A stretch of 64,000 nucleotides of DNA from Klebsiella pneumoniae (GTDB lineage: Bacteria > Pseudomonadota > Gammaproteobacteria > Eutrophobiales > Eutrophobiaceae): assembly GCA_945878555.1 (NCBI GenBank), contig CAMDWI010000003.1:1-64000 (forward strand), in the 5' to 3' direction. Positions 8,502 to 34,423 of this stretch are shown here, one piece after another. The position numbers and the translations under genes are program-made. The notes under the pieces were generated by a model. It ran no database searches. It was not told the origin of the DNA and was given only the letters and a program-made list of their open reading frames with translations. Each line of letters begins with the position of its first letter. Within the stretch, counting starts at the first letter, position 1.

Positions 8502-8521
8502 GTTGTTTCTCCGCCGTAAGG

Positions 8522-9412
8522 CTAGCCGTGTCGGCCGGTAATATAGTCCTCGGTCATTTTCTGCCAGGGTTTGGTAAACAGGGTGCTCGTATCGTTAAAT
8601 TCAATCAACTCACCTATATACATGTAGGCGGTATAATCAGACACACGGGCGGCCTGCTGCATGTTATGCGTTACAATTACGATTGTGTAGTTTGATTTAA
8701 GTTCATAGATCAATTCCTCGATCTTCAACGTCGAGATCGGGTCGAGCGCAGAGGCAGGTTCGTCCAGCAGCAACACCTCCGGCTCTATCGCGATCGCCCT
8801 TGCTATCACCAGACGCTGTTGCTGACCGCCGGACAGGCCCATCGCATTGGCATCAAGCCGGTCCTTGACCTCGTCCCAGAGTGCAGCGCTGCGCAGCGAT
8901 TTTTCAACAACCTCCTCAAGCACCTTGCGGTTCTTGATCCCCTGGATACGCAGTCCGTAAGCGACATTTTCGAAGATCGACTTGGGGAACGGGTTCGGTT
9001 TCTGGAATACCATGCCGACGCGCCGACGCAACTCGGACACGTTTACCGATTTGGCAAAGATGTTCTGGTCATGCAGTGTCACTTCACCCTCGACCCTGAC
9101 ATTGTCTATCAGGTCGTTCATCCGGTTGAAACAACGCAGCAGGGTCGATTTGCCGCAACCACTCGGACCGATGAATGCGGTCACCCGTTTCTCGGGTATC
9201 TTCAGATTGATAGTTTTCAGCGCCTGGTTATTGCTGTAATAAAAGGAAAAATCCTTCACTTCGATACATATCTTCTCGTCTTCCAGCAATGCACGACTGG
9301 CGGTTTTGCGGATGATGTCCGGGTCTATCGCATGGGTACGCACATCGCGTGGCTTTTCTTCTTTCTGGCTCATATCGCTGTTGCTGACCTGACTAGTGCT
9401 GCTCGGAGGCAC
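8522..9412 (-). CDS. pstB: phosphate ABC transporter ATP-binding protein PstB
   Basis: Cytoplasmic ATPase of the high-affinity phosphate importer, 296 residues. Walker A is GPSGCGKST, the signature is [16 protein letters not shown], Walker B is [12 protein letters not shown], and the switch histidine is in [10 protein letters not shown]. The start is the GTG at 9412, overlapping the pstA stop by 20 bases. A GGGAG sequence 7 bases upstream supports this over the ATG at 9373. The result is an N-terminal extension of about 45 residues beyond the ABC core, absent from compact PstB proteins and probably disordered. Confidence 0.96.
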
Positions 9413-11054
9413 GGTACTTCTCCCTTAGCTTATTTCTTATATGGATGGCTGCCAAGTTTAAAAATATGATGATTAATACCAGTAACAGGGCTGTTGCATA
9501 AACCAGCGGTCTGGCAGCCTCAACATTCGGGCTCTGGAATCCCACATCATAGATATGAAAACCCAGATGCATGAACTTGCGTTCCAGGTGCAGATAGGGG
9601 AAGTTGCCGTCCAGCGGCAGCGAAGGCGCCAGTTTGACCACACCGACGAGCATCAAGGGGGCGACCTCGCCGGCAGCGCGGGCGATAGCCAGAATCAGAC
9701 CGGTCATCATCGCAGAAGCGGTCATCGGCAGTACGGTCCGCATCAGCGTTTCCGCCTTGGTGGCACCAAGCGCCAGACTGCCCTCACGAATTGAGCGCGG
9801 CACACGTGAGAGACCTTCTTCGGTCGAAACGATGACCACCGGCACGGTCAGGATGGCCAGTGTCAATGAAGCCCACAACAGTCCCGGCGTTCCGAACGTT
9901 GGCGATGGCAGCGACTCGGCGTAGAACAGTTCATCAAGGTTGCCACCGATAAAGTAGACAAAAAATCCGAGCCCGAATACACCATAAACAACCGAGGGTA
10001 CTCCGGCCAGGTTATTCACGGCGATACGGATGATACGCACCAGCGTCCCCTGCCGCGCATATTCGCGCAGATACACAGCGGCGATGACGCCAAACGGTGT
10101 CACCATCACCGACATAATCAGCACCATCATTACCGTACCAAAAATGGCCGGGAAGATACCGCCTTCGGTATTGGCCTCGCGCGGCTCGTCGGAGACAAAC
10201 TCCCACAACTTTTCCAGATAAAACCGGACCTTCGCAAACACCGACATGGCATTGGGCTGATAGGCCCTGACAACCTGCGCCAGCGGCAGATCCACCTCGG
10301 TATCATCCGACAGTCTTGCGGTGATGCTGTAACTGCCGAGTTGCGTATACAGCCGTGCCAGCTCTTCGGTATGGCTATTATATTGCTGCTGAAATCCGGC
10401 TTCTGCCAGCTGAATCTCTGCTATATCTTCAGACGCTGCCGGGGCAAGGCGTTTTTCCTGCAGACGCAACTGCTCAATTTCATAATTGATATCGCCTATC
10501 AGATCTTTCTCGATGTGTTCTATCTGTTCATGTAAGGTGCTCGTTTCTCCTATCACCTGCATCAGCTTGTCCCACACCAACGTCGGATCACTGACCTCTA
10601 CCTGGCCGTCCTTGTTGACCGCAACCAGATAACCGTAAAGATTACCCCATTCCCGCCGTTCCACCGCCATTAACTGTTCCGGGTACAGAATGTTCTTCAT
10701 CGCCGGGGCAACTACCCAGCGGAAATCTATGCCGAGATGATCACGATTACCGGTCTTGATCAGGTAGCGTTCGATAAAGTCAGCGTCTTGCGGTATCCGT
10801 GTATCTGTCTCAACCATCCGCGCACGCGGCACGCTTTCATGTTCGACCAGTTCACCGATGATGCGTACGCTTGCACCCATCTCATCCAGATATTCGAACT
10901 CGGCAATAGACTTTGGCCAGAAATGACCCAGCCCCCTGACCGCTATCAGTGTCAGCAGACCCACGACCAGCAAAATGGATACGCTGACCGCACCGGCATT
11001 CAGCCATATCCAGGGCGTTCCGGAATCAAACCAGGATTTTAATCTGCTCGTCAT
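9393..11054 (-). CDS. pstA: phosphate ABC transporter permease PstA (long form)
   Basis: Inner-membrane permease of 553 residues, nearly twice the size of compact PstA. TM1 is near residues 17-40. A periplasmic insertion of about 250 residues follows, including a Glu/Gln-rich coiled-coil stretch ([20 protein letters not shown] and beyond, near 175-235). The usual permease TM bundle starts near 305, with the EAA-type loop [16 protein letters not shown]. The start shares ATGA with the end of pstC. Large insertions of this kind are known in PstA of pseudomonads and related bacteria, so this is a lineage trait and not a fusion artefact. Confidence 0.94.
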
Positions 11055-13330
11055 AATGAACTGTATTTCTGGCGCAGCCGCTGTCTGACGACTTCAGCCA
11101 CGGTATTAAACATGAAGGTTGCAAGAAACAGGACCAGACCGGCCAGAAACAGGATGCGATAATGGGTACTGCCCAGTTCTGATTCCGGCATCTCGGTAGC
11201 GATATTGGCTGACAGGGCACGGAAACCCTGAAACATGTTCAGATCCATAATTGCGGTGTTACCGGTTGCCATCACCACGATCATGGTCTCACCCACCGCA
11301 CGACCAAGACCAATCATCACGGCCGAGAAAATACCCGGACTGGCAGTCAACAGGATCACACGTGCCATTGTCTGCCAGGGTGTAGCGCCCAGCGCCAGTG
11401 AACCGGTGGTCAGGTGTCTTGGGACGCCGAAAATTGCGTCCTCGCTGATGGAGAATATGGTCGGAATGACAGCAAAGCCGATGGCGATACCGACTACAAA
11501 CGAATTACGCTGATCATAGGTGATGCCCCACTGCTGGCTCATCCACAACGGCAAATTACCGTCAAACAACCACAACTCCAGCGGCTTGCTCGAACTGAAT
11601 ACCATGATAGTTACCAACATAATGACCGGGATCAGGATGATCGCCTCCGATCCGGACGGGACCCTCAGCCGGAAAGACTCCGGCAATCTGCCCCAGACCC
11701 AGGCCGTCAGCAACACGGCCGCAGGGATCATCACAAACATCAGGAACATCGCCGTCAGATAGGCCTCTACCAACGGCGCAAACCACAGTCCCGCCAAAAA
11801 TCCGAGGATCACGGTGGGTAGTGCGGCCATGATTTCGATAGTCGGTTTGACGATGTTACGCATACCTGGCGACATGAAATAGGCTGTATAAATGGCACCC
11901 ATAATCGCGAGGGGTATAGCAAACAACATCGCATAAAACGAGGCCTTCAAAGTGCCAAACGCCAGCGGGGTCAGACTGAATTTCGGTTCAAAATCACTGC
12001 TGGCCGAGGAAGACTGCCAGATATACTCCGGTTGTCCCCGGCTCTCGTACCATACCTTGCCCCACAAGGAACTCCACGATACTTCAGGATGGTTATTTTG
12101 CAGGTCCCAGAACTGCAAGTTCCCACCCTCACCCTCTATCAATAAAGCGTTTGCCCGTGGGGCAACGGCCAGCTTGCCCGCCGGACCTGATTTCACATTT
12201 TCCAGCTTTACCGTGCGGTGTGCAGTGGCATGGTAAATCCCGAGATTTCCGGCGGCATCAAGGGCTAACAGACCTTTGCGAAAATATTCCGGTACCACAC
12301 TGGTTATCGGTGCATCCTGGGATGCGAAATTACGCACATTTTGCAAGGTATAATTATTGTCAGCGTCGCGAACCGGGAACCATTGCGATATCGTCCCGTC
12401 GGTTTTCCCTACAACTAGTGATATACCACCACTCAGAAATTCGAGTGCCGTAATACTGTCGTTGTCATTGGATAACCTGACCCGTTCCAGTAACAGTGGC
12501 TCAGACTTGTCACTGATATCGTACGAATACAACCAGCCCCTGTCGTCAGCGAAATAGAGTTCACGTTGTTCAACGTCTATCACCAGATGGGTAATGCTGG
12601 TATTGAAATTAATCGGTATCTCGGTTTCGGTCCGGTTAAGGGTCTCACCTTCACCCAGAAATCCCGACTGTAATTCCAGATTGACCAGCAACAGCCTGTT
12701 ATCTTCGGTCACGGCGGCAACAGTTGTTTGTGTGGTATCGGTCTGTCCCGCCACCAGGACCAGTGGCTTGCGGGACTGGTCGAGACTGACAGGTTTGCCG
12801 TCGAACAGGCTGTATACCGCCGGCGTGATCAGTCTTTTATCATCAGGGTAGGTGACAGTATATTGATGCCCGCGCAATAACACCGTCCCGTTATCCATAC
12901 CAAAAACCAGCAGATGCTGCGCCGGGTCTCCAGCCGCAAACGAACGGATGCTGCGGCGCTTGTCGGTCAAGATGGCTTCCGTTTTGATAATCTCGCCATT
13001 TGTCGTGTGAAAGAAAAACAGACTACCCTGGCTGGTTACACGCATGCCAACTTCGTGCTGTTCTTCCAGTGAATAGTAGAGTGTTTCCTGGTCCGTACCA
13101 CCGGGGACAGTGTATGCGGCCAGTTGTTCCATGCGCGCCGGCAGGAACAAGGGAATGACCACCCAGATCAGATAGAGGGCAATCATCACAATCGCGCCTA
13201 TCACACTGATACCACCGATCGCCATCAGATAACGAATGACCACATCCTTGACCATGCGGTAACTACGATATCGCTTCGCGGCGGCATCGTTGAAGTCGGG
13301 CAAAAAAGATTCGGTTTTACTTACTGACAT
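11051..13330 (-). CDS. pstC: phosphate ABC transporter permease PstC with periplasmic beta-propeller-like insertion
   Basis: Permease of 759 residues, against about 300 in compact PstC. TM1 (near 33-58) is followed by about 400 residues with repeating WD-like strands (LLVFGMDNGTVLLRG, LYFADDRGWLYSYDIS, ISLVVGKTDGTISQWFP, LLIEGEGGNLQFWDLQ). This suggests a periplasmic beta-propeller. The membrane permease domain starts near 455, with the loop LGATPWQTMARVILL. The ATG at 13330 has no convincing Shine-Dalgarno sequence. A PhoB site at 13342-13370 with a -10-like TAGACT (13342-13337) would place the transcription start on or next to this ATG. An ATG at 13255 is the alternative start. Confidence 0.94.
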   Translation of the reverse strand: MSVSKTESFLPDFNDAAAKRYRSYRMVKDVVIRYLMAIGGISVIGAIVMIALYLIWVVIPLFLPARMEQLAAYTVPGGTDQETLYYSLEEQHEVGMRVTSQGSLFFFHTTNGEIIKTEAILTDKRRSIRSFAAGDPAQHLLVFGMDNGTVLLRGHQYTVTYPDDKRLITPAVYSLFDGKPVSLDQSRKPLVLVAGQTDTTQTTVAAVTEDNRLLLVNLELQSGFLGEGETLNRTETEIPINFNTSITHLVIDVEQRELYFADDRGWLYSYDISDKSEPLLLERVRLSNDNDSITALEFLSGGISLVVGKTDGTISQWFPVRDADNNYTLQNVRNFASQDAPITSVVPEYFRKGLLALDAAGNLGIYHATAHRTVKLENVKSGPAGKLAVAPRANALLIEGEGGNLQFWDLQNNHPEVSWSSLWGKVWYESRGQPEYIWQSSSASSDFEPKFSLTPLAFGTLKASFYAMLFAIPLAIMGAIYTAYFMSPGMRNIVKPTIEIMAALPTVILGFLAGLWFAPLVEAYLTAMFLMFVMIPAAVLLTAWVWGRLPESFRLRVPSGSEAIILIPVIMLVTIMVFSSSKPLELWLFDGNLPLWMSQQWGITYDQRNSFVVGIAIGFAVIPTIFSISEDAIFGVPRHLTTGSLALGATPWQTMARVILLTASPGIFSAVMIGLGRAVGETMIVVMATGNTAIMDLNMFQGFRALSANIATEMPESELGSTHYRILFLAGLVLFLATFMFNTVAEVVRQRLRQKYSSL

Positions 13331-13590: not shown

Positions 13591-13661
13591 CTGTCATAAA
13601 AGTTTAACAATACTTTTCTGTACAAGTAATATAATTGTCACATCTGTAATAAAACTGTAAC
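13591..13661 (+). promoter_or_regulatory. two PHO boxes upstream of the TPR gene
   Basis: Box 1 is CTGTCAT (13591-13597), AAAA, GTTTAAC (13602-13608). Box 2 is CTGTAAT (13644-13650), AAAA, CTGTAAC (13655-13661), a near-consensus 7-4-7 PhoB site. A perfect -10 hexamer TATAAT lies at 13630-13635. That is 10 bases past the position where a third, degenerate repeat of box 1 (13613-13619) would end. The gene start is at 13724. Both boxes point toward the TPR gene. Confidence 0.78.
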
Positions 13662-13723
13662 AAAAGTGTGTTTCGAAAGTTCCTGTCTGTTTTTATTGTT
13701 ACTTTTTGATGGAGGGTGATGTC

Positions 13724-14074
13724 ATGAAATTTCAAACTGTTGTTTTTGTTATGTTACTGGGCCTGGCCGGGTATTCCTCAGTCGGCTACAGTGAGGAAAG
13801 TGAGTCCTATCAGGCTGATGCCATTGCCAGCGGGAAATACGCTGATGCTGAACAGGGTCTGCTTACGATACTGAAAAATAATCCGGATGACCCGTATGCC
13901 TTGCTTAATCTCGCCTATGTTTACCAGAAGTCAGGCGATGCCATGAAAGCCCAGCAAGTATACCAGCGCATTCTCGATATGAAAAACAACCCGTACGCCG
14001 AGCTGACATCGGGCAAACCGGAGCCGGTAAAAAACATCGCCCGCCGTGGTATTGCCAGCCTGGAATCCCGTTAA
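13724..14074 (+). CDS. small exported TPR protein, probable Pho-regulon member
   Basis: Protein of 116 residues. The ATG at 13724 follows a GGAGG ribosome-binding site by 8 bases, and the frame extends a few codons upstream without support. An N-terminal signal peptide (KFQTVVFVMLLGLAGYSSVGYS) precedes a tetratricopeptide unit around residues 30-85 (GKYADAEQGLLTILKNNP, DPYALLNLAYVYQKSGDAM). It is therefore a small periplasmic helical-repeat adaptor. It stands alone, divergent from pstC, behind two PhoB-type boxes, so it is probably made under phosphate starvation. The binding partner is unknown. The secreted lipoprotein or the Pst proteins are possibilities, but nothing in the sequence decides. 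Confidence 0.8.
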   Translation: MKFQTVVFVMLLGLAGYSSVGYSEESESYQADAIASGKYADAEQGLLTILKNNPDDPYALLNLAYVYQKSGDAMKAQQVYQRILDMKNNPYAELTSGKPEPVKNIARRGIASLESR

Positions 14075-14095: not shown

Positions 14096-14536
14096 TTACT
14101 CAATTTCCGCCGTACATGTGGTCAGGGCGCTCGCTGTAGCGCTCGACCACAGCAGTTCTCCCGAGTTGTCCTGATTCAGTACAAACAGGAAATGTTCGAC
14201 CCCTGAATCCGATTCGAGTACCAGATGTACCGGATTACCGTTGCCCTGAACCTGGGTCAATTTTCCATTTGCAGAGACCGAATCCGCACCAGCAAGCAGA
14301 TCATAGTGATCACTACCGTCCAGTCGGACCAGGACTATCCGACTCGATACTGCATAAGAAGAACGGACGGGATCAAGACTGACATACTGATGTCTGTCGT
14401 AGAATTCCACGGGCATCTCACATCGGGTAACAATCCCGCTTCCAGGCAGGACTGACGGGTTAGATGCGGGAATCGCAGCAGAGACCAGACCTGCGAATGA
14501 CAGTAACAAGGTGAATATCAGTGGGTAGATGTGCAT
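14096..14536 (-). CDS. small secreted protein of unknown function
   Basis: Hypothetical protein of 146 residues. A signal peptide (MHIYPLIFTLLLSFAGLVSA) is followed by a mainly beta-strand sequence with two cysteines (TRCEMPVEFYDRHQYV and LTTCTAEIE), which could form a disulfide in the periplasm. I do not recognise the family. It converges with the TPR gene (21-base gap) and is transcribed away from the lipoprotein and TonB-receptor genes, downstream of their terminator. A PhoB-like 7-4-7 site lies 45 bases before its ATG, so it is probably phosphate-controlled like its neighbours. Confidence 0.7.
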   Translation of the reverse strand: MHIYPLIFTLLLSFAGLVSAAIPASNPSVLPGSGIVTRCEMPVEFYDRHQYVSLDPVRSSYAVSSRIVLVRLDGSDHYDLLAGADSVSANGKLTQVQGNGNPVHLVLESDSGVEHFLFVLNQDNSGELLWSSATASALTTCTAEIE

Positions 14537-14580
14537 GGTTGCTCTTTCTGTACGTGCGCATGTAACTTTACGTACTGTTT

Positions 14581-14598
14581 ATTACAATAATATTACAC
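14581..14598 (-). promoter_or_regulatory. PHO box candidate upstream of the small secreted protein
   Basis: On the minus strand, GTGTAAT (14598-14592), ATTA, TTGTAAT (14587-14581). A -10-like TAAAGT (14570-14565) begins 10 bases further on, the same geometry as at the other PhoB-type sites in the window. The site is AT-rich, so chance similarity is a real alternative. Confidence 0.55.
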
Positions 14599-14632
14599 AC
14601 ACAGATTTGATCTATCAGTATATCCGGAAACG

Positions 14633-14661
14633 AAAAAAAGGGTGGCCGTGAAGCACCACCC
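14633..14661 (-). terminator. rho-independent terminator of the receptor/lipoprotein transcript
   Basis: On the minus strand the stem GGGTGG/CCACCC (14661-14640, 10-base loop) runs into seven T residues. A second hairpin with a perfect 10-base stem (CAGCCATCGC pairing with GCGATGGCTG, 14675-14706) lies just before it in the 3' untranslated region. Confidence 0.8.
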
Positions 14662-14722
14662 CTTTCAGGAACAACAGCCATCGCATCCTGTCAGCCGCGA
14701 TGGCTGTAATACAGTGTACCGC

Positions 14723-16933
14723 CTACTGCTGGATTTCTGCCTGTAACGGATGGAAGTTATTGCCAGGCAGCTTCCCGTCTACATTGGCATGGATATAGGT
14801 CCAGCCATCCCAGAACGGCCCACCACCGGTACCGTTATTTTTCGGGTTCAAATCCGGGTTGCCGGAGGACGGGTCAACCGCACCAAAATAGTTTCCAACA
14901 GTATTACCATTTACTCCGGCAGGGGGTGCAACGCTATTGTCCGGCGCGACGCCCGGGTTGATTGCGAACGTGGTCGGATTGATGTCACCGGTAAACAAGG
15001 TGAAGTCACGGCGACTGGCCGCCACCGGGGAACCGGACTCATCATTACCACCATTCATGAAGGTGGACTGGAATGCGTCGTCACCGGAGGCAGACTGGAT
15101 ACCAAAGCCCCAGGTACCCGCATCCCCGTTCGCACATTTGACCGCGACATCGCGGAATGCGGTATTGATATCTATCTGTGAATCAATATCGAAACAGCCA
15201 CGGGTGAATTTACCAGTGCCAGCAGGGGCTATCGTGTTATCTATGAATGCAGATCGCCACATCGCACCACCAAAACCGACCGTCCACAAACCACCCACTG
15301 TCGAATTTGAACTGCCCTGGTTACCAAGTATGGTCACATTGACAAAATTCGGGCGACTTACCGGCAAGGCATCGTTACCCGGTCCGGCGTTGTCTGCCTC
15401 TATTCCCCGGTCACCGTTGGCCGCACCCATAATGACCAGTGCGTTTTGTACCGTACCGACATATCCCTCGTCCATGTCGAGACCATCATCATCGGCCCCG
15501 TTGATTACTACATTCGAGGCGCTGGCTTCACCACCGAACCATTCGATGCCGTCGTCCTCAGAACCCAGTACTTGCAGGTAGTTGATGCGCGTGCCTGAAC
15601 CGGCGGCCTCAATTGTCAGGCCCTGTACTTCCTGGTTTGGCCGAAAGCCGAGTCCGGACTCGGCGATGATCACATATTCGATCGTACCGCTATTATCGTT
15701 GTTGGTGTTACAACCAAAGAAACGGGTCACACCATCTGGTGCAGCCTCGGTCGCGATCTGTCCGCCCGAACAATTATTATTGACACCTCTGCCACTCAGC
15801 ACCAGGCCGGCCCACTGGCCGCGACCGGTCAGGTCCGCCGGATCGTCTGTGATCTGCAGTATGGTACCGGTACCGGTTGCGGTGACCGCCGCCATGATTA
15901 TCGGCAAGTCCGGTGTACCCACTGCATTGATGCGTGAACCGCGGGTAATCACCAGGCCAGTCTGTAATCCGTCATAGCCGAAAATCTGGGTGCCCGGTTC
16001 TATCGTCAACACGGCATTATTATTACCTGTCGGTCCACCACTGATATCACCATCACCCACATTGATCGCATTTTGCAACACATAGATATGATTATTGGTC
16101 AACGTTACGTCGTCGGTAATGTTCGCGGTCAGTACACAGACCGGGAACTGTTGACCGAAGATCGGCTCTTTCGTTGATGCCAGCGTACCGACCGGACAGT
16201 TACCCGTCGCAGCAGCGGTGATGGTACTGCCGGTACCGGTGCCAGCACCACCGGTCGCCTGGTTTACTGCGACCAGCAGTTCAGCCTGGGCCGCGACCGC
16301 ACTGACCAGATTACCCTCGGCACGGGGAGCGGTATTGCCTGCGGTCATTTCATCAATCAGACCTCCAAACAACGTATCAAAATTGGTGCCGCTGACGAGC
16401 GTCGCCTGCAGGTTGTCCCTGACCGTCTGGCCCAGACCGTTGATTGCGTTCAATGTAGTCGTTGTTATGGTGATCCCGTTTGCCGTATTTCCATCGCCGT
16501 CCAGTGACTGCAGGAAGCGGGCAATACGCACGGCCCGTGCGTTGGACGGGTCAGCAGTGGCGCCGGCCAGTTCTGACGGGGTCACGATCTTGCCATTGGT
16601 CACCGCGCCGTTAGTGCTACCCAGTGAAATACCGCCGATGGAAAATGATACTGTGTCACCCTGGGCAACAGTAAAACCGCCAGGCGTACCGTTAGCTCCG
16701 GTCAGGCCAGTGGTGTTTGAAGGGGTGCCGGTAAAGGTAATACCGTTGACTGCAGCATCGACGAATGTACCGGACACCATGGTCGTGGTCGTAGTCGTCG
16801 TGGTTCCAACCGTATCCGCACCGACAATAATATCACCGGTGTTGGGGCCACCACTGCCGCCACCACAGGCGGTGAGCGCAAGGCTGAACAAGCCTGTCAT
16901 GAGCATCCTGTTTTTTGAGTTGAACATCATCAT
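14723..16933 (-). CDS. large secreted lipoprotein, beta-helix-like, paired with TonB receptor
   Basis: Protein of 736 residues with a lipobox (LALTACGGG, lipidated Cys near residue 23) and a Thr-rich linker (eight consecutive Thr, near 44-51). An N-terminal beta domain (VDAAVNGITFTGTPSNTTGL, VSFSIGGISLG) is followed by a long Gly/Asn/Asp-rich region. There, strands repeat with IEPGTQIFG, DDGIEWFGGEASASNVVI and GADDDGLDMDEGY, which resembles a right-handed parallel beta-helix with possible calcium sites. It is downstream of the TonB receptor (107 bases), probably in one transcript, and next to a type II secretion operon. The family is widespread but uncharacterised. A role in phosphate scavenging similar to Caulobacter ElpS is inference from position and PhoB sites. 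Confidence 0.8.
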   Translation of the reverse strand: MMMFNSKNRMLMTGLFSLALTACGGGSGGPNTGDIIVGADTVGTTTTTTTTMVSGTFVDAAVNGITFTGTPSNTTGLTGANGTPGGFTVAQGDTVSFSIGGISLGSTNGAVTNGKIVTPSELAGATADPSNARAVRIARFLQSLDGDGNTANGITITTTTLNAINGLGQTVRDNLQATLVSGTNFDTLFGGLIDEMTAGNTAPRAEGNLVSAVAAQAELLVAVNQATGGAGTGTGSTITAAATGNCPVGTLASTKEPIFGQQFPVCVLTANITDDVTLTNNHIYVLQNAINVGDGDISGGPTGNNNAVLTIEPGTQIFGYDGLQTGLVITRGSRINAVGTPDLPIIMAAVTATGTGTILQITDDPADLTGRGQWAGLVLSGRGVNNNCSGGQIATEAAPDGVTRFFGCNTNNDNSGTIEYVIIAESGLGFRPNQEVQGLTIEAAGSGTRINYLQVLGSEDDGIEWFGGEASASNVVINGADDDGLDMDEGYVGTVQNALVIMGAANGDRGIEADNAGPGNDALPVSRPNFVNVTILGNQGSSNSTVGGLWTVGFGGAMWRSAFIDNTIAPAGTGKFTRGCFDIDSQIDINTAFRDVAVKCANGDAGTWGFGIQSASGDDAFQSTFMNGGNDESGSPVAASRRDFTLFTGDINPTTFAINPGVAPDNSVAPPAGVNGNTVGNYFGAVDPSSGNPDLNPKNNGTGGGPFWDGWTYIHANVDGKLPGNNFHPLQAEIQQ

Positions 16934-16975
16934 TGCTGTTTGACTCCTCTTTATATATTTACATTTCGTCTGTCT

Positions 16976-17003
16976 GGATAACCGCGTACCTTACGCGTTA
17001 TCC
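16976..17003 (-). promoter_or_regulatory. hairpin between receptor and lipoprotein genes
   Basis: Inverted repeat GGATAA plus CGCGTA pairing with TACGCG plus TTATCC, with one bulged base and a 3-base loop, in the 107-base gap between the TonB receptor stop and the lipoprotein start. It has no T-tract, so it looks more like an mRNA processing or stabilising structure than a terminator. It could let the lipoprotein mRNA accumulate above the receptor mRNA. Confidence 0.45.
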
Positions 17004-17040
17004 ATGAATTTCTTGTTACCGGAATATGACCAATCTGTGT

Positions 17041-19635
17041 CTATTCGGAAAACCCGTCAAAGCGCCACTTCACGCTGAGCAAACCCGTCACGCCTGACTT
17101 GTAGCGACGGGTCACAAACTCGCCCTGGCTACGCTCATATGCATCATTGAGCAGATTCTCGAGTTCTAGACTGACGGTCAGTGGTTCCAGCATTGGTATC
17201 GCAGGTGACCATGACCATTTCAGGCCGAGGTCGAGGCGGGGTTCCAGGTATTCATCTGGCAATCCCTGGATACCGGCAGTAATAAGACGTTCACCGACAC
17301 GACCAAACTTCATGGTCACTATGTGCTCTTCACCTGAATAACCGAGTTGTAAATTCAACAAGGTGTCAGGCTGGCCGGTCATACGACGCACCGGATTGGT
17401 GGATATCGTGGCCCCGGTGATCTCGACCTCGGAATCCTGCCAGGCCAGATTGCCACCAATATGCATGTTATTGAGCCAGTCAGGACCGCCCTGCATCAGA
17501 TCAATCAATCTGCCCATATTGAAGTAGCTGTTTACCTCAAAACCAATCACATCGCCCTTGTCTGCATTGATAAAGGTGATGGTCTGACCGCCACCTGCAA
17601 TCGGGCTGAAGCTGCGCTCAATGGGATCTGTAAAGTCCTTGTAAAACACTCCAGTAGTCAGAGCTTCATCGCTGTTCGGATACCATTCCCAGCGCAGGTC
17701 CGCACTATCAATGATCGCCGGTCCAAGTAAAGGATTGCCCTGAAAGCGCTCATCCTCCTCAGTATCAACAAATATTGTGTTTGATACCTCGACGGTGGCC
17801 GGGTAGGACAAGGAACGGGTCAGACCGGCACGTATCTGTGAGTTTTCGGACATGGACCAACTGGCCACGAGAGAGGGCAGACCCTTCTGTTGTTCGAATC
17901 CGGAATCTACGGCGAGTGCACCGGAGGCTCCACCCGACTCAAAAGTCTGGACCTGGAAGCTGGCGTCCTCCAGGCGAATGCCAGCAACCACGCGAAACTT
18001 CTCAATCATTTCAAAATCGACCTGGGCATAACCACCGATTACCTCGACTTCACTGCTGTAATCATTGGCGACACCCCCGAATTCGGTAAAGCTCACGTCG
18101 ACACCGATATTCTCGTCTGCAAATATCTGCTCCACCTTACGAAAGCGTGAGCCGGTCGTATTAAAGCCAAACTGCCGGATTTCAGACACACGATCACGAT
18201 AGTCGTAATCAAATCCGGCCTTGATCCCGGTAGCGGATCTGTCCGTACTGAACAAAGGAAAGGTTACGTCAGCACCACCACTCAGCGTGTCTTCATCCAC
18301 GCTATTGAAGGAGCGCAACAGATTCGGTGCCGCATTCTGCAGGAATAAATTACCACTGCCATCAACCTCGGTGTTCTGCAGGGAAAATTCGCGGCGATCA
18401 GGCAACTCACGGGTGGCATTGGCCACCAGTATCCGCCAGTCAATCACTACCGGCTCCAGCGTATGCTGGCCGGTAAATTGTTGCATCAGCATTTCGCGTT
18501 GTTCAAACTCAAGCATGTAGCGGCGTAACCAGTCGGAGTTACTGCTGGGCTGGAACAGACCTTCTGCCATCTCAACCTTCTCGGTGGTGTCGCGGATCCA
18601 GAAGGTATTGCTTTTAATCCTGTGTTGCATCCATTCGCCGGTCAACGCCAGCAGACCACCAAGACCGGTATTCAGCTTCGTACGATTGTTCAGATAATCA
18701 TCCTGGATTTCAGGGGTATCGTTGCCGTTTGCATCTGTACCCAGACGCAACACCCTGTACTCTTCCTGTTCTACACGGACGTTCTGGCCGTAGTCCAGCG
18801 TAAGACTGGCGCCCAATGTCATCTCATCACTGTCATAACGTTTGCCGGCCGACAGCGAGAAACTGCCGTCCGGGCCCATCCGTTCCAGATAGCCAGGTGC
18901 CAGTTCATCGGAGAAGCTTTGTCCCAATGCGTTGCGTTCGGCCAGCGGGAGGGTAGCTATCGGTGTGCCGGATGCCTGGATGTCGACTATGGCCTGCGGC
19001 AGTTTCAGGATACTATCCACTTCTCCAAAGATATCCTTACCGGTATTAAACTCCAGACCGTCCTCATCCATGGTCTCGTTCAGGCCTGCCCCAACTTTCA
19101 GTTCGATAAAGTCCTCGGTGGGCAGTCCACTGGTACTCAGCTGTACCTGACCGGATCCGAATGACCCGGGCCGATCAGCCGTATAGGCCTTCTGCACGGC
19201 GATACTCGAGAGCACCCCTGACGGAAACAAGTCCAGCGGCGTAATCTGCTGAATCGGATCCAGACTGGGTAATTGTGATCCATTGAACAAGGTGGACGTA
19301 TAACGCCGCGGCTGACCACGGATAACGACAAACTTGTCATCCTCTACAGTCAAACCGGTAACACGTTGCAGTGTGTCTGCGGCGTTGCTGTCGCCCAGTC
19401 GCAAAAATTCTTCCGCACCACTCACCTCGGTCACCGTGGTCGACTCGCGCTGTATACTAAGCACCGATGCCGTACTTCCCTCAAGTGCAGCTCGACCGCG
19501 GACAACAAGCTCCTCGATTTCACCGGACTGTGCGTATACCGGGTTGCTGATACAGTTAGTCGCAAAAATAATGAGTAACAGGTTTCTGAGTGATTGCGGT
19601 TTGTTCGAGGTAGCCTGGAAGTCTTTCATCTTCAA
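17041..19635 (-). CDS. TonB-dependent outer-membrane receptor
   Basis: Protein of 864 residues. A long signal peptide ends at about residue 36 (CISNPVYAQ) and is followed by a TonB-box-like EIEELVVRG (38-46). The plug domain (about 60-185) includes DTLQRVTGLTVEDDKFVVIRG, and a beta-barrel runs to the C-terminus (VKWRFDGFSE). It imports a ligand across the outer membrane using energy from TonB. Four PhoB-type heptamers stand 88 bases upstream, and the gene is followed by the lipoprotein. The likely ligand is therefore a phosphorus compound or something released by a secreted hydrolase, rather than a siderophore. The substrate cannot be read from the sequence. Confidence 0.92.
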   Translation of the reverse strand: MKMKDFQATSNKPQSLRNLLLIIFATNCISNPVYAQSGEIEELVVRGRAALEGSTASVLSIQRESTTVTEVSGAEEFLRLGDSNAADTLQRVTGLTVEDDKFVVIRGQPRRYTSTLFNGSQLPSLDPIQQITPLDLFPSGVLSSIAVQKAYTADRPGSFGSGQVQLSTSGLPTEDFIELKVGAGLNETMDEDGLEFNTGKDIFGEVDSILKLPQAIVDIQASGTPIATLPLAERNALGQSFSDELAPGYLERMGPDGSFSLSAGKRYDSDEMTLGASLTLDYGQNVRVEQEEYRVLRLGTDANGNDTPEIQDDYLNNRTKLNTGLGGLLALTGEWMQHRIKSNTFWIRDTTEKVEMAEGLFQPSSNSDWLRRYMLEFEQREMLMQQFTGQHTLEPVVIDWRILVANATRELPDRREFSLQNTEVDGSGNLFLQNAAPNLLRSFNSVDEDTLSGGADVTFPLFSTDRSATGIKAGFDYDYRDRVSEIRQFGFNTTGSRFRKVEQIFADENIGVDVSFTEFGGVANDYSSEVEVIGGYAQVDFEMIEKFRVVAGIRLEDASFQVQTFESGGASGALAVDSGFEQQKGLPSLVASWSMSENSQIRAGLTRSLSYPATVEVSNTIFVDTEEDERFQGNPLLGPAIIDSADLRWEWYPNSDEALTTGVFYKDFTDPIERSFSPIAGGGQTITFINADKGDVIGFEVNSYFNMGRLIDLMQGGPDWLNNMHIGGNLAWQDSEVEITGATISTNPVRRMTGQPDTLLNLQLGYSGEEHIVTMKFGRVGERLITAGIQGLPDEYLEPRLDLGLKWSWSPAIPMLEPLTVSLELENLLNDAYERSQGEFVTRRYKSGVTGLLSVKWRFDGFSE

Positions 19636-19722
19636 TCTCTTGTCCGTGGTTTTGTAGCGTGGCCAGATAACCGCTTTGGAAGCGATTTCCGTTCTTTACC
19701 GGCGGGATACTAGGGGTGGTGT

Positions 19723-19762
19723 GTGACAGGATGATTAACTGAAAATGACAATCAGGTTACAA
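19723..19762 (-). promoter_or_regulatory. tandem PHO box upstream of the TonB receptor
   Basis: On the minus strand four heptamers lie at an exact 11-base period: TTGTAAC (19762-19756), TTGTCAT (19751-19745), AGTTAAT (19740-19734), CTGTCAC (19729-19723). A -10-like TAGTAT (19712-19707) starts 10 bases after the last one. This is one of the best PhoB-type promoters in the window. Confidence 0.85.
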
Positions 19763-19825
19763 ACAGGACCCCGAACTGTATTCAGGGGTGTATTACAGCA
19801 GTGTTGTTATTATTGTATTACGAGA

Positions 19826-20611
19826 CTAATAACCGGTCCGCCACTGGATGTGGGCACGATCGTTTGTTATTTCTCCAAGCAATGGCAACAGACTTTTGAC
19901 TGCGTCTGGTGCATCTAAACCGGCACTGGCCTCGCCATCAAAGCGGATGAGGCGATCTGATGGCTCCAGCGCGAGTCTGCCCTTGATAATCAACAGAGAG
20001 ACTGTGGAGTCGGTGGCGACATCGCCTTGTATGCCACCGGCAGTGGATGCCTGTAATGATAACGAGTAATCGCCAAGTGTATGCTGATTACTGAGGCTGA
20101 CGACCTTGAGGTTATCAAACATCATCTGCATTCTGCCCGAAACAGGCAGCCCCGCGTAGGTACCGGAGAGTCCGGTGCCAGTGAAATCGACCCTGCCACT
20201 GGTGCCGGACACACGGAGTAACGGGTGAAGTTCAGACAGTGCCTGCAGGGCAAAACTGCCTTTCATTTCCTTCAACTGCCACCCGGATCTGTCCAGCAGG
20301 GCGACACCCCGGATCTCACCATTATAGGCATCAAATTCGAATTGAATTCTCACCTGGCCGATCAACAGCGGTAATATCGATAACTGTAGCGTGCCAGCAT
20401 GGATCAGCAGATGCTGATGGTTCGGTAAACGAACTGCGAGATTGGTAAAAGCAGAGTCGAATACTGTCCCTGTCAACTGCTGCCAGACGGTACCTTCGGG
20501 CAGTCTGCTGCGGAAGACATGAACCACACGATCCGCAGGCAGGTTCACCATTAACGTGCCGGCAAAAAAAACCATGAACAGAAAAACCAGTAGCGTACGG
20601 TATCGTGTCAT
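19826..20611 (-). CDS. gspN: type II secretion system protein N
   Basis: GspN of 261 residues, the last gene of the gspC-N operon. A single N-terminal membrane segment (TLLVFLFMVFFAGTLMVNLPADRV) is followed by a periplasmic beta-rich domain with the typical GTVWQQLTGTVFDSAF start. GspN is an accessory component present in only some T2SS and its role is not well defined. The gene overlaps gspM by 4 bases. Confidence 0.9.
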   Translation of the reverse strand: MTRYRTLLVFLFMVFFAGTLMVNLPADRVVHVFRSRLPEGTVWQQLTGTVFDSAFTNLAVRLPNHQHLLIHAGTLQLSILPLLIGQVRIQFEFDAYNGEIRGVALLDRSGWQLKEMKGSFALQALSELHPLLRVSGTSGRVDFTGTGLSGTYAGLPVSGRMQMMFDNLKVVSLSNQHTLGDYSLSLQASTAGGIQGDVATDSTVSLLIIKGRLALEPSDRLIRFDGEASAGLDAPDAVKSLLPLLGEITNDRAHIQWRTGY

Positions 20612-21117
20612 TGGCTACCGGCAGGGGCAATCGTCAGCGTGGCCTCCACCATACCGTCCTGATCAGCAATTCGACTGATACTGGCCAGCACCGGACGGGC
20701 GGTGCTACGTGTACGCAGTTGTAACAGAAATTCCATCAGGCCGGAAAAGGCCACCGCATCAAAGCGTACGGTGACCGATTGTCCGGACGCCGGCTTCAGC
20801 TCGGTAACCTGGGTATGGATTCCGGCCGCATGTAATAATTCCTCAACCAGTGTTATTGTCAGCGCAGACTTGCCTGTGCCTTCTGCGGTACTGCCACCGC
20901 GCAGTTGTTCTACCTGCAGCAGACTGTCCTGCATCCAGACACTGTCCTCACGCAGTCGCGGGATATCTGCCTCAAGCTGGGCACGCCGCAGCAACATCGG
21001 CTCAACCAGCAAATACACTATGAGCAATACCATAATCAGCACTGCGGACGCCAACGCCAGTTTCTCGCGCTGTGCACGCTGTTGCCACCACTGCATAAAC
21101 CGCTGTTGGCTTGTCAT
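20608..21117 (-). CDS. gspM: type II secretion system protein M
   Basis: GspM of 169 residues. It has a short cytoplasmic end (RFMQWWQQRAQREK), one TM helix (LALASAVLIMVLLIVYLLV, near 20-38) and a periplasmic ferredoxin-like domain. It binds GspL and helps build the inner-membrane assembly platform. Start and stop both overlap neighbours by 4 bases, so the three genes are tightly coupled. Confidence 0.93.
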   Translation of the reverse strand: MTSQQRFMQWWQQRAQREKLALASAVLIMVLLIVYLLVEPMLLRRAQLEADIPRLREDSVWMQDSLLQVEQLRGGSTAEGTGKSALTITLVEELLHAAGIHTQVTELKPASGQSVTVRFDAVAFSGLMEFLLQLRTRSTARPVLASISRIADQDGMVEATLTIAPAGSQ

Positions 21118-22370
21118 GCCTGACCTCGCAGACGGATCCGTCCAAACACACGACCGTTCTTCAGCTCTGCATTTTCGATATCAACACTCCCCCCGGTAGC
21201 AAGCTGCCCCTGCAGTCGATCGAGCGCTTCATAATCCGGCACACTGACCTCGACAGTGAAACTGTTGCCATCAAAACTGACCTTGTATAACTGACTGTCC
21301 GGACTGGTGGCGAGCTTATCCGCGATATCCTGCAGGCGCGCCAGAAAATCCTGGCCATTACCCGCATTGCTGTTACCCCGGGCGAGGTCCTGTAATTGTT
21401 GCTCCATCTGGAAACGTGGATCCACCAGATTATTTGTCCCGGGGAAGGCCTGCATATAGGTTGCCTTTATCGATTGCTCTAACTCATCATATTCCGCCTG
21501 TAATCTGGCCCCGGCAACAAACCAATGCACGATACTGACGAGTATCAGTACAGCCAGCATCGCGCCTGCCGGCAGAAACCGGCGCAGGTCTTTCCACTGG
21601 CGATCATCAACAGCGTAAGGTCCGGTCAGCAGACTGAGTTGCTGATCAGGCAACGGCTGACGTGCGAGCCACTGTCCGCGCGGGGTATCTTCCAGTACGA
21701 TCTCAAGCTGAATATTGCGTGATGCCAGCTGTTCTGACCAGCCGGTGATTGCCCTGTATTGTTCACGATTGCACACACGCACGATCAGTTTTTCCGGATG
21801 TTGCGTTGCCTGTTCGAGTGCCAGCAAAAACATGCCGGGGATCTGCGACCCGATCTCACCAAGCAACACGGCACCATCACGTCCGGGTCTGCGCAGCAAC
21901 AAGGGGGCAGCACTGGCCTCGATAAACCACACGGACGGCGCGGGTGTCGCTATCGCCAGATAATCCGGTACCAGCAACAGGACGTTCCAGCCGGACGCAC
22001 TGCATTGTTGCAGCAAGCCTTTGATGTATTCATGTTCGCTAACAATAACCGGTATCCCGGACACGCCACGGTCAGACCACAAGGGCACCAGATGGTAATC
22101 GCCCGCATCATGTAACAGCTGATCCTCCAGCGCGTAGTGCAAGGCTCCGAGCAGGCGTTTGCGATTATTGGTGGGTATGTTGACCCGATGGATACGGGCA
22201 CGCTCACCCGGCACGCACAGCACCAGCCTGGCACCGGCCGGTGCCGGCAGATTATCCAGCCGGTCTGACTGTCCATACTGACGCGGGGCGGGCTCACCGC
22301 TATAACACTGCGCCCAGTCTATCCCTTGCGCATGCACGCGGACCCACCAGTATTCGCCACGTATATTCAT
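21114..22370 (-). CDS. gspL: type II secretion system protein L
   Basis: GspL of 418 residues. The actin-like cytoplasmic domain (about 1-250) recruits the GspE ATPase. One TM helix follows (LPAGAMLAVLILVSIVHWFVA, near 265-285), then a periplasmic domain that pairs with GspM. Normal length for the family; lies in the middle of an unbroken gsp operon. Confidence 0.93.
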   Translation of the reverse strand: MNIRGEYWWVRVHAQGIDWAQCYSGEPAPRQYGQSDRLDNLPAPAGARLVLCVPGERARIHRVNIPTNNRKRLLGALHYALEDQLLHDAGDYHLVPLWSDRGVSGIPVIVSEHEYIKGLLQQCSASGWNVLLLVPDYLAIATPAPSVWFIEASAAPLLLRRPGRDGAVLLGEIGSQIPGMFLLALEQATQHPEKLIVRVCNREQYRAITGWSEQLASRNIQLEIVLEDTPRGQWLARQPLPDQQLSLLTGPYAVDDRQWKDLRRFLPAGAMLAVLILVSIVHWFVAGARLQAEYDELEQSIKATYMQAFPGTNNLVDPRFQMEQQLQDLARGNSNAGNGQDFLARLQDIADKLATSPDSQLYKVSFDGNSFTVEVSVPDYEALDRLQGQLATGGSVDIENAELKNGRVFGRIRLRGQA

Positions 22371-22396
22371 AAATAATTATTACCTGTGCACGTCAT

Positions 22397-23350
22397 TTAT
22401 AACAGTTCCCGGTTTTGTCTTAACAATTCTGCCTGACCTTCATTACGGCGGTAGAGTGAACTCACACGGTATTCAACATTATCAAAATTCAGCTGTGTAT
22501 GTGCCATAAAGTAGCGGGTCACGGTTGAGATGCCCTGCGGGACCGGTTTTTCCCGGTCTCCGAGCAGCCGCTCGGCAAGTGCGGCCTGGTCTGCTACCGG
22601 CTGCTTGCTGATCTCTTCCGCCCATTGTTTTGCCATTGTCATCGCCTGACCGGACAAGTCCCATTCGACCACCGTCGCCGCCAATACCTCGGTGCTGGCC
22701 GTATTGACATTAAGAGGAGTTGGCTCCGGCAAGGCAGAGACAAACGGAGCCAGCTTTTGCCAGACATCGCTGTCGATGCCGCGAACCAGTCGAAGTTCAG
22801 CCACATCCTCAAACGGACGGTTTGCCGCAAAATACGGCGTCGCAAGACCGATATAAAACACATCTTCCGCGCCCCAGGGCCCGGAAGGACTGCCATCTGT
22901 ATCTATCCAGTCAGCCACCGCCTGGGCGATACCCGTGTCAAGTTCAAGTATCTGCAACAATCGTTCAAACTGTTGCATCGCCTGTCCATTTAACTTGCCT
23001 TCAGCATCAATCAGATTATTCAGATTGAATCGCGACTGCATGTCCTCAATACGTCCGGACAAAATACCCCAGACTGCCGGTATCGGTGGCAAGATCTGCG
23101 CCCACATATCATCGGTCGCATCATAGCCATTGGTGTCCTGTTCAAGTATGTCGGCCACCCATAATTGGGCCGCCACTGTGGCCAGCCTGGCGCGGGCAAG
23201 TGCATTGCCATTTTCCACCTGGCGGACCCAGAGCTGACCGGACAATCCAATCCGACTGACGATGGCCGTCAGCAAGGCCACAATCAGCAGGATGGTGATC
23301 AGCGCCACACCGGCCTGCCTGGACCGGGGTTTAATATGTAAGGCCGACAT
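22397..23350 (-). CDS. gspK: type II secretion minor pseudopilin GspK
   Basis: Minor pseudopilin of about 317 residues from the ATG at 23350; a GTG at 23359 is also in frame. The prepilin site is G-VALITILLIVALLTAIVSR. Position +5 is Thr instead of Glu, which is normal for GspK at the pilus tip. The large insertion domain carries SRFNLNNLIDAEGKLN, typical of the alpha domain of GspK. It caps the pseudopilus together with GspI and GspJ. Confidence 0.93.
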   Translation of the reverse strand: MSALHIKPRSRQAGVALITILLIVALLTAIVSRIGLSGQLWVRQVENGNALARARLATVAAQLWVADILEQDTNGYDATDDMWAQILPPIPAVWGILSGRIEDMQSRFNLNNLIDAEGKLNGQAMQQFERLLQILELDTGIAQAVADWIDTDGSPSGPWGAEDVFYIGLATPYFAANRPFEDVAELRLVRGIDSDVWQKLAPFVSALPEPTPLNVNTASTEVLAATVVEWDLSGQAMTMAKQWAEEISKQPVADQAALAERLLGDREKPVPQGISTVTRYFMAHTQLNFDNVEYRVSSLYRRNEGQAELLRQNRELL

Positions 23351-23957
23351 GAAATACACGCTTATAGATTTGTCCGTTATCCAGCTCCAGCGTCAGCTCT
23401 ACCGCCCGCGGCAGGGCGGATTGTGCCGCTGTAACCGATCCCACCGGCCAGTTTGAATTCCACTGGTGCGTATTATCCAGGTAGCGCAGTTGCAAGCTGG
23501 CGATATCCGCTGTCAACTCTGCCTCATTACCCTGCTCATCTTCCGGCATATTCAGGCGCGGCCAGCTGACACGGTAAAGTGTGCCCTCACGTAAACGATA
23601 CGCCACGCGCAGATGCGGGCTGACCAGACCGCTGCTATACGAGGCATGACCACCGCGGGTAAACAGCATCAACTCACCCTCCGCGCCTGTATTCGCTGTT
23701 CCCGCACCCGCAAACGGACGGGTGGAGGTCAGCGGAATCCTCTGGCCCAGGTTTCGGGCCTGATCGAGATCCTGCTGCATCAACACCATCACACTGTCGA
23801 GCCGACGCCAGAACTGGCGTTGTTGTTGCAGGCCATCCTCGATGGAGATCGCCTGCTGCAAACCGGTGTAACCGGCACCGGCAATCAGGATAAAAATGGT
23901 CAGCGCCACCAGGACCTCCAGCAAGGTCATGCCGGACTGGCGGGAATAACGACTCAT
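23331..23957 (-). CDS. gspJ: type II secretion minor pseudopilin GspJ
   Basis: Minor pseudopilin of 208 residues. The cleavage site and hydrophobic helix are G-MTLLEVLVALTIFILIAGAG, with Glu at +5. The globular part includes LDSVMVLMQQDLDQARN, as in other GspJ proteins. Its 3' end overlaps the gspK start and its 5' end overlaps gspI by 4 bases. It needs a prepilin peptidase, which is not encoded in this window. Confidence 0.94.
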   Translation of the reverse strand: MSRYSRQSGMTLLEVLVALTIFILIAGAGYTGLQQAISIEDGLQQQRQFWRRLDSVMVLMQQDLDQARNLGQRIPLTSTRPFAGAGTANTGAEGELMLFTRGGHASYSSGLVSPHLRVAYRLREGTLYRVSWPRLNMPEDEQGNEAELTADIASLQLRYLDNTHQWNSNWPVGSVTAAQSALPRAVELTLELDNGQIYKRVFHVGLTY

Positions 23958-24376
23958 CCTTCACCTCGTGAACCGCTGTCTTGACTACCGACAGACAGTG
24001 CCCTGTTCGCGCGATGCAGGAATCCCTGCAGATTGATTAACGCGGTTTCTGCCTCCAGCCCGACACTGACGGTGATGCTGCGCAGGTTGTCCTGACCGGT
24101 CGTTGCAATCTGTTCCTGCCAGTACCAGGTGCGGCCACCCATCTGCTCGGTGCCGTTATAGGCACGTGGGTCCGGCCATTCATCCATCACCTGGCGTTCA
24201 ACTATACGGTTCTCGGCCACCCAGCGTGCGACCACCCGATCAGACATACCCTGACTGACAGCCACACCTTGTGCGAGTCCTTTCCACAAGGCGGTCATCG
24301 CAATAACCATGACGGCGAGTGCGACCAGGATCTCAATCAGGGTAAACCCGTCATTCAGTCTGCGCCGGGTCAGCAT
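23954..24376 (-). CDS. gspI: type II secretion minor pseudopilin GspI
   Basis: Minor pseudopilin of 140 residues with the site G-FTLIEILVALAVMVIAMTAL (Glu at +5) and the GspI hallmark RVVARWVAENRIVERQV. Its ATG shares the last A of the gspH TAA stop (TAATG), giving tight translational coupling. It nucleates the tip complex with GspJ and GspK. Confidence 0.94.
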   Translation of the reverse strand: MLTRRRLNDGFTLIEILVALAVMVIAMTALWKGLAQGVAVSQGMSDRVVARWVAENRIVERQVMDEWPDPRAYNGTEQMGGRTWYWQEQIATTGQDNLRSITVSVGLEAETALINLQGFLHRANRALSVGSQDSGSRGEG

Positions 24377-24897
24377 TACAGTTCAACCAGCCCGGCTTCT
24401 CCCACCGGTCCCATCGCGATCACAAATTCATTATCAGCGCCGCGCACTACCAGTCTGAACGTATCCTGTTCTCCGGTGGGGAACAGATACACCTCGGCCA
24501 CGGTCGGTACCAGTTCACCGTTAATCTCCAGACTGCCGAGTCGTGCCTGATCGAGTTCGTGTTCGCCGGCAAACGGTGTCATGGATACTTCGATAAATTC
24601 ATTACCGGCCAGTTGCAGAAACCGGTAGTTCTGTTCAAGCGGATCAAACCGGACCTGCCAGATGCGGGAAGACATGACCGATTCTTCACGGGCCTGGTTG
24701 ATTAACTGTGCCAGCCTGTGTGCGGAAGCAGCGGCATCACGATCGGCATTATTGCCCAGCATAGGTACAACCAGACCAGACAACACGGCAATGATGGTAA
24801 TGACCGCCAGCAATTCAAGCAGGGTAAAACCGCCTTCACGGCGTACCACCGGCAACAGTACCGGCCCCGATTTGTTGTCAGCGGAAACGGGTCTCAC
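24376..24897 (-). CDS. gspH: type II secretion minor pseudopilin GspH
   Basis: Minor pseudopilin of 173 residues. An N-terminal stretch of about 23 residues before the cleavage site (G-FTLLELLAVITIIAVLSGLV) is longer than a usual leader. The globular domain has MSSRIWQVRFDPLEQNYRFLQ, typical of the GspH/FimT fold. It overlaps gspG by 4 bases. Confidence 0.93.
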   Translation of the reverse strand: MRPVSADNKSGPVLLPVVRREGGFTLLELLAVITIIAVLSGLVVPMLGNNADRDAAASAHRLAQLINQAREESVMSSRIWQVRFDPLEQNYRFLQLAGNEFIEVSMTPFAGEHELDQARLGSLEINGELVPTVAEVYLFPTGEQDTFRLVVRGADNEFVIAMGPVGEAGLVEL

Positions 24898-25334
24898 AGA
24901 TCCCAGGAACCGATATCATCCGTATCACCACTGCGACCGTTCGGGCCGGGACTGAATACGTCAACATCGCCGTGTTTGCCCGGCTGCAGATACAGAAACG
25001 GTTTGCCCCACGGATCCTGCGGCACCTTTTCCATATAGCGGTTCCAGTTTTGCGGCACCGGCTCAGAGGTCGGTCGCTCTGACAGGGCCTGCAGGCCTTG
25101 ATCCGTGGATGGATAGTTGTGGTTGTCCAGTTTGTACATGTCCAGCGCAGAGCGAATAGCACGGATATTGCTTTGTGCCGCACTGATGCGCGCCTGTTCC
25201 GGTCTGTCCATTACCCTCGGCACCACCACGGCCGCGAGTATGCCGAGGATGACCACAACGACCATCAACTCGATCAGGGTAAAACCACGCATGGCCCTGC
25301 CAGGTCTGCGGCAAGCGGTATTCATTCTGTTCAC
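24894..25334 (-). CDS. gspG: type II secretion major pseudopilin GspG
   Basis: Major pseudopilin of 146 residues. The leader ends at G-FTLIELMVVVVILGILAAVV. The conserved body includes ALDMYKLDNHNYPSTDQGLQAL, DPWGKPFLYLQPGKHGDVDV, and the calcium-loop Asp residues near DDIGSWDL. GspG forms the shaft of the pseudopilus. A 34-base gap separates it from gspF, the widest gap in this half of the operon. Confidence 0.96.
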   Translation of the reverse strand: MNRMNTACRRPGRAMRGFTLIELMVVVVILGILAAVVVPRVMDRPEQARISAAQSNIRAIRSALDMYKLDNHNYPSTDQGLQALSERPTSEPVPQNWNRYMEKVPQDPWGKPFLYLQPGKHGDVDVFSPGPNGRSGDTDDIGSWDL

Positions 25335-25368
25335 GTCTCTGTCTCCTTTGATCTTGCAGTCGTCCTGC

Positions 25369-26583: not shown

Positions 26584-26584
26584 A

Positions 26585-30186: not shown

Positions 30187-30198
30187 CGGCCATCCTGG

Positions 30199-32197: not shown

Positions 32198-32255
32198 CAA
32201 TCCGTTTCTCCAGTTAAGCAATATTCAGGTAACAACGGCATTGTTGGCCGGGGTC

Positions 32256-32295: not shown

Positions 32296-32315
32296 CGGCA
32301 GAATATCACTGTCAT

Positions 32316-33659: not shown

Positions 33660-33671
33660 TCGTGTACAGGC

Positions 33672-34358: not shown

Positions 34359-34423
34359 CTTGACGGTGTAATCGGGCACATTGGTATTTAATCCGGTAAA
34401 TGTGACATTTTGATTAAATTAGT

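Follow-up and report, generated by a model that had tools for sequence, protein, structure and literature searches.

Gene content of the pho/pst locus

The window, by which we mean the whole stretch of 64,000 nucleotides analysed here, carries a phosphate-regulation locus into which a type II secretion system and a receptor-lipoprotein gene pair are built. The order on the minus strand is phoB, phoR, pstS, gspC-gspN, the receptor gene, the lipoprotein gene, a gene for a small exported protein, pstC, pstA, pstB, phoU and ppk, with ppx on the opposite strand (Table 1). The original prediction had described a receptor of 864 residues followed by a lipoprotein of 736 residues, and both genes are confirmed. 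It did not mention that the unit as a whole is set within the pho/pst locus, nor that lipoprotein residues about 52-228 form a separate N-terminal region. Among the family assignments, PstC scores just under its model cut-off, GspC slightly under the NCBIfam cut-off and GspH under the Pfam cut-off. The small exported protein has no Pfam match above cut-off.

Two plus-strand genes lie nearby. A Porin_5 family porin (34554-35807), possibly a phosphate porin, is encoded divergently from phoB behind a strong three-heptamer PHO box at 34483-34511. A small exported TPR protein (13706-14074) has strong PHO-box-like sites upstream (13591-13630 and 13644-13672); a small TPR gene with a PHO-box-like site is also found near the ElpS gene of locus L130.

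Table 1. Positions of the features discussed, in the window and, in the last three rows, at the corresponding slot of two related genomes.
Feature	Position	Strand	Basis or remark
ppx	4101-5606	+	past phoU
ppk	5628-7697	-	past phoU
pstC, pstA, pstB, phoU (downstream half of pho/pst locus)	7794-13330	-	NCBIfam and Pfam
Small exported protein	14096-14536	-	counterparts at the same place in G004, G003 and G035
Intrinsic terminator of the receptor-lipoprotein unit	14635-14666	-	12-pair stem, then T run; fold z-score -3.85
ElpS-family surface lipoprotein (P0001), 736 aa	14723-16933	-	lipobox LTAC, Cys23; homologues
ElpS domain (residues about 233-736), predicted right-handed parallel beta-helix	14726-16237	-	AlphaFold, VIA-align, conservation
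Mobile N-terminal module (residues about 52-170), after Thr run	16424-16780	-	shared with other lipoproteins; absent in sister species
TonB-dependent receptor (CC0171 type; P0002), 864 aa from TTG	17041-19635	-	Pfam Plug 3e-7, barrel 1e-21
-10-like element TAGTAT, 10 nt past last heptamer	19707-19712	-	read in sequence; TAGGAT in G004 and G003
PHO box, four heptamers, TTGTAAC-n4-TTGTCAT-n4-AGTTAAT-n4-CTGTCAC, 11-bp period	19723-19762	-	matrix scan
gspC-gspN, type II secretion genes	19826-31116	-	Pfam or NCBIfam: gspC, D, E, F, G, H, I, J, K, L, M, N
pstS (upstream half of pho/pst locus, 31232-34379)	31232-32221	-	NCBIfam PstS family model above cut-off
phoR (upstream half)	32316-33659	-	NCBIfam PhoR family model above cut-off
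phoB (upstream half)	33672-34379	-	NCBIfam PhoB family model above cut-off
G003, unrelated TonB receptor behind same PHO box	L150 11998-14815
G003, LpxR-type gene behind same PHO box	L150 14950-15990
G002, LpxR-type gene alone in slot	L152 4860-5864

A conserved PHO box precedes the receptor gene

A scan with a hand-made heptamer matrix scored the PHO box ahead of the receptor gene at 27.6, second among four-unit sites in the 64 kb; only the pstS site is higher (28.2), and the maximum reached by four-unit sites in 30 Markov-simulated windows was 18.5. The next-ranked sites of the window also fall in pho promoters, those of phoB and the divergent porin and the gap between the small exported protein gene and pstC. 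Between the window and two genomes of the same genus, the sister species G004 and G003, the intergenic region has diverged nearly throughout, except for TTGTCAT...TTAATCA..CTGTCAC...CAC..TAG.AT, which comprises the core of the PHO box and the -10 element ten bases downstream. The sparing of these elements in a promoter that has otherwise drifted in three congeners is strong evidence that the predicted box works. The original prediction of a four-heptamer PhoB site at this position is thus borne out by the matrix score and by the conserved promoter footprint, and the predicted site at the promoter marks the unit as a candidate member of the PhoB regulon. Because a terminator lies 3' of the lipoprotein gene and no PHO box was found between the receptor and lipoprotein genes, the pair looks like a two-gene transcription unit.

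Sites of this kind recur across the family. Scored with a three-heptamer site, local base composition and intergenic-only controls, 50 of 74 lipoprotein/receptor promoters exceeded the 99th percentile of shuffled sequence, compared with 29 of 343 control intergenic regions. The Mann-Whitney p of about 1e-24 overstates the certainty, since the matrix is hand-made and the loci share descent, but the difference is large. Pho control as a family trait of receptor/ElpS pairs is well supported by these predicted sites.

The family-wide distribution bears on a different reading: the receptor's ligand, a siderophore or a signal for example, would have nothing to do with phosphorus, and the PHO box would merely come with the gene's place in the locus. 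As this reading would allow, G003 has an unrelated receptor at this slot, but PHO-box-like sites precede the pair in many genera, including loci with no pst genes in their flanks, and Caulobacter elpS does not respond to iron (PMC2996285); we consider a phosphorus-unrelated ligand improbable. Identification as a siderophore receptor found no support and was set aside.

The lipoprotein belongs to the ElpS family

The lipoprotein matched no Pfam or NCBIfam model. Its translation reads as a lipoprotein signal peptide with lipobox LTAC and lipid-bearing Cys23, followed by an octa-Thr run at residues 44-51 (the Thr linker originally described) and, from about residue 233 to the C-terminus, by a domain with the conserved ElpS motifs DDGIE.FGG, DDS.D and GIEAD; the adjacent gene encodes a CC0171-type TonB receptor. 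Judged by these sequence features, the lipoprotein and receptor belong to the known ElpS/CC0171 family. P0001 was matched in 94 of 398 sampled genomes of the phylum, in many over the ElpS domain and in some over the N-terminal module alone. ElpS-domain relatives also number in the hundreds among named loci; the analysis used the best 80. Cysteines are conserved across the family. A search of the lipoprotein's own genome found no paralogue for either half.

One relative (G491; L122/L131), counted from a GTG start, has LAGC at residues 17-20 and Asn at residue 38, and is followed by a TonB receptor gene and gsp genes. These features match the published ones, so we identify this relative as Caulobacter ElpS. 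The window lipoprotein is about 35% identical to it over the aligned part of the domain.

The family includes rearranged members. A 550-residue lipoprotein of Vreelandella utahensis (L034, 9707-11500) contains a circularly permuted ElpS domain, in which the part aligned to P0001 residues 361-735 comes first and the part aligned to residues 258-347 comes last. In many genera (L036, L037, L038, L081, L088, L100, L104 and others) ElpS proteins carry the beta-helix domain two or three times in tandem.

The ElpS domain is predicted to be a beta-helix with an acidic ladder

AlphaFold modelling of the ElpS domain from 97 sequences gave a structure of mostly beta strands (pLDDT 79.1, pTM 0.87). By VIA-align the model superimposes on many beta-helix proteins with Z about 21 over 264-282 residues (rmsd 3.0-3.6), and Z lies in the range of about 17-22 for dozens of unrelated right-handed beta-helices, which include tailspikes, pectate lyases, alginate epimerases and NosD. 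Structure prediction had been proposed as the check for a beta-helix, and the fold is supported in the model. Because the matches spread over dozens of unrelated beta-helices, no enzyme family can be named. Foldseek searches with both models returned nothing that counted at E <= 0.001, searches of solved structures by sequence gave no usable match for the domain profile or for the lipoprotein (best E 0.59), and no enzyme signature or catalytic family was recognised in the lipoprotein. The proposal that it binds or hydrolyses DNA or a phosphorylated polymer whose products are then imported is so far unsupported, as no enzyme family matches.

Six acidic residues (D460, D461, E464, D482, D486 and E512) are invariant across 90 sequences, and two more, D483 and D514, nearly so. 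They seem to recur at equivalent places from one coil to the next and may form a site for a metal or a ligand. The Asp/Asn-rich repeats of the original prediction are retained as coils of the predicted helix, with their invariant acidic ladder, and not as repeats of sequence.

A mobile N-terminal module

The separate N-terminal region has at its core a mobile module at residues about 52-170. This module resembles the N-terminus, just past the lipid anchor, of metalloprotease-, beta-lactamase- and carboxylesterase-type lipoproteins, as well as segments of giant proteins. Pfam gave no match to it at E up to 5, and in the full-length lipoprotein model it is at low pLDDT. The sister species G004 encodes the lipoprotein without it, in an ORF that starts near the ElpS domain. 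The module looks like a mobile surface spacer; as a spacer or anchor it probably takes the part of the short linker that other ElpS proteins have.

The receptor is consistently paired with ElpS

The receptor has the Plug and TonB_dep_Rec_b-barrel domains (PF07715 and PF00593) above cut-off. It falls outside the TIGR01782 TonB-Xanth-Caul subfamily (198 bits; curated cut-off 310 bits) and has no usable match among solved structures by sequence. An in-frame ATG at 19629, two codons after the TTG, would give a protein of 862 aa.

In all 31 genomes compared, the best relative of P0002 genome-wide is encoded next to or close to an ElpS-type gene, with other receptors scoring much less. In one of them (G157) two receptors tie, of which one adjoins its ElpS gene and the other lies about 7 kb from a second ElpS gene. 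A same-strand receptor gene lies within 900 bp of the ElpS gene in 61 of the 80 named loci; five more were missed in this count solely because the stop-to-stop frame overlaps the receptor. This conserved adjacency supports the earlier suggestion that receptor and lipoprotein act as a pair.

Pairing with one receptor type is also what would be expected if the lipoprotein were a non-enzymatic lid or docking protein, similar to SusD, that catches ligand at the mouth of the barrel. SusCD-type pairs likewise consist of a TonB receptor and a surface lipoprotein encoded together, the two- and three-copy ElpS proteins of other genera look like multivalent binders, and secreted Caulobacter ElpS lacks phosphatase activity (PMC2996285). 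Unlike SusD, however, the window lipoprotein is predicted to be a beta-helix and has no sequence relation to SusD, membership being rejected in a search that found no Pfam family at E up to 5. Moreover, Caulobacter cells release ElpS, a step for which a lid would have no need, and the invariant acidic residues might just as well form an active site. A SusD-like role is possible but doubtful.

Comparison with known phosphate-responsive systems

Receptor-lipoprotein pairs of this kind have already been described, as Caulobacter ElpS/CC0171 in 2010 and as Flavobacterium FI and FII with their receptors in 2020. The closest parallel is ElpS (CC0170), CC0171 and gspC-N of Caulobacter crescentus, which share with the window the lipobox and Thr-rich linker, a neighbouring related receptor, an adjoining type II system and phosphate control, which for the window is predicted from its PHO box (PMC2996285). 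Control of the Caulobacter type II system by PhoB is published, and CC0171 expression is reported to be constitutive. Caulobacter ElpS itself is a phosphate-induced, palmitoylated, surface-exposed lipoprotein; the purified protein has no alkaline phosphatase activity (PMC2996285), and deletion of elpS does not lower phosphatase activity. A rise in alkaline phosphatase activity when the lipoprotein is overexpressed counts, with surface display and type II-dependent release, among the traits that characterise the family. The window differs in its gene order, with gspN, receptor and lipoprotein genes in succession, in the single PHO box that serves the pair, in the location inside phoBR-pstS...pstCAB-phoU and in the additional N-terminal module of a lipoprotein about 35% identical. 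In addition, CGGG follows the lipid cysteine, a sequence counted among atypical lipoprotein retention signals in Pseudomonas (PMC2996285), so surface display of the window lipoprotein is not certain.

In Flavobacterium johnsoniae the ElpS-related, phosphate-induced proteins FI, FII and FIII occur with TonB transporters (PUSIII, PUSIV); FI and FII each sit with a phosphate-induced receptor, FII inside the phoBR operon (PMC8115612). Their reported identity to ElpS is 31-36%, and they were modelled on polygalacturonase (PMC8115612). This likeness is drawn from the published description; unlike the window, the system belongs to the Bacteroidetes and no type II system is mentioned in the cluster (PMC8115612). 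The Pseudomonas Hxc system also places type II genes beside a phosphate-starvation-induced exoprotein, the DING protein Psp, with a putative Pho box, but its cargo is a phosphate-binding protein and not a lipoprotein-receptor pair, and hxcR itself is not phosphate-induced (PMC2225411).

Relation of the lipoprotein to the type II system

The original prediction regarded the lipoprotein as a good candidate substrate of the neighbouring secretion system; in that case it would be a hydrolase or lyase of beta-helix fold, secreted or anchored at the surface, that attacks phosphorylated polymers. The gspC-N genes are its immediate neighbours in this genus and occur in 19 of the 80 named loci, the family-conserved cysteines are consistent with folding before export, and the nearest folds include polysaccharide lyases and hydrolases, although these fold matches are unspecific. 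The Caulobacter results divide the claim. ElpS reaches the cell surface without the type II system, which speaks against direct secretion, whereas its proteolytic release requires that system and is blocked by protease inhibitors (PMC2996285), so a dependence on type II secretion persists at the release step. The flanks available for 61 of the 80 loci contain no gsp genes. Direct type II secretion of such an enzyme is therefore, in our judgement, rather unlikely.

ExbB-type genes occur in 20 of the 80 loci, and gsp and ExbB-type genes are never found together within the flanks, a mutual absence that taxonomy and flank length may explain. Some of the ExbB-type loci (within L034-L113) have DUF3450, TonB and TPR genes nearby.

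A variable slot after gspM

The type II genes lie between pstS and pstC, inside phoBR-pstS...pstCAB-phoU, in all five of the congeners examined. The slot that follows gspN holds receptor, ElpS and small protein genes in the window species and in G004. In G003 three genes follow the same PHO box: one for a receptor not significantly similar to P0002, one of the LpxR type and that of the small protein. The slot of G001 has none of receptor, ElpS, LpxR or small protein (for G002 see Table 1). In another genus (G035), gspN, receptor, ElpS and small protein genes lie together just ahead of phoB, with gspC and gspD divergent.

The boundaries of the slot are sharp. DNA identity between the window and G004 is 90% up to position 14232, 67-69% over the lipoprotein and receptor genes, and 90% again from 20606; gspN gave no reported DNA match. 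The low-identity block (14233-20605) has one edge within the gene of the small exported protein and the other where gspM meets gspN. At the protein level GspM is 85% and GspN 35% identical. The simplest reading of these comparisons is that the block, gspN included, was replaced by recombination.

To our knowledge, GspN is a type II component that has no known function. Its gene diverges suddenly just where the cargo does, and on this ground GspN may fit the secretion system to its cargo; such a functional tie is a guess. The wider idea that the gspM-pstC interval is a Pho-driven exchange slot, in which PHO box and flanks stay while the cargo changes and GspN may adapt to it, is speculative, and we hold it unlikely as a whole. 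We found no report in the searchable literature of a type II system inside a pho/pst locus with a variable slot, and the arrangement may be new.

Proposed mechanism and implications

Taken as a whole, the locus is best explained as an uptake pair of ElpS/CC0171 type at the outer membrane, under the control of PhoB, a reading to which we assign a probability of roughly 0.7. Pho control and the pairing of receptor and lipoprotein are the parts well supported by the genomic comparisons. Under phosphate starvation PhoB would bind the four-heptamer box and switch on the receptor gene and then the lipoprotein gene. The lipoprotein would be exported, lipidated at Cys23 and displayed on the surface as its Caulobacter orthologue is, and, again by analogy with Caulobacter, partly released. 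Its beta-helix may bind a polymer or glycoconjugate that bears phosphorus, held by an acidic ladder that coordinates metal, and present or trim it. The receptor, powered by TonB, would take in the product and supply periplasmic phosphatases and the Pst transporter, whose genes surround the pair. The type II system would most likely secrete a protease or other enzyme that frees the lipoprotein, or possibly the lipoprotein itself.

Under phosphate starvation, lipoproteins of the ElpS type can rank with the most abundant secreted proteins; in Flavobacterium, FI is the top exoprotein at 18.7% (PMC8115612). The present analysis ties one receptor type and PHO-box control to the ElpS family across many genera, and provides a good fold model with the six invariant acidic residues as a short list for mutation. 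It also identifies a natural setting in which cargo and GspN change together, so that the purpose of ElpS and the role of GspN become testable questions.
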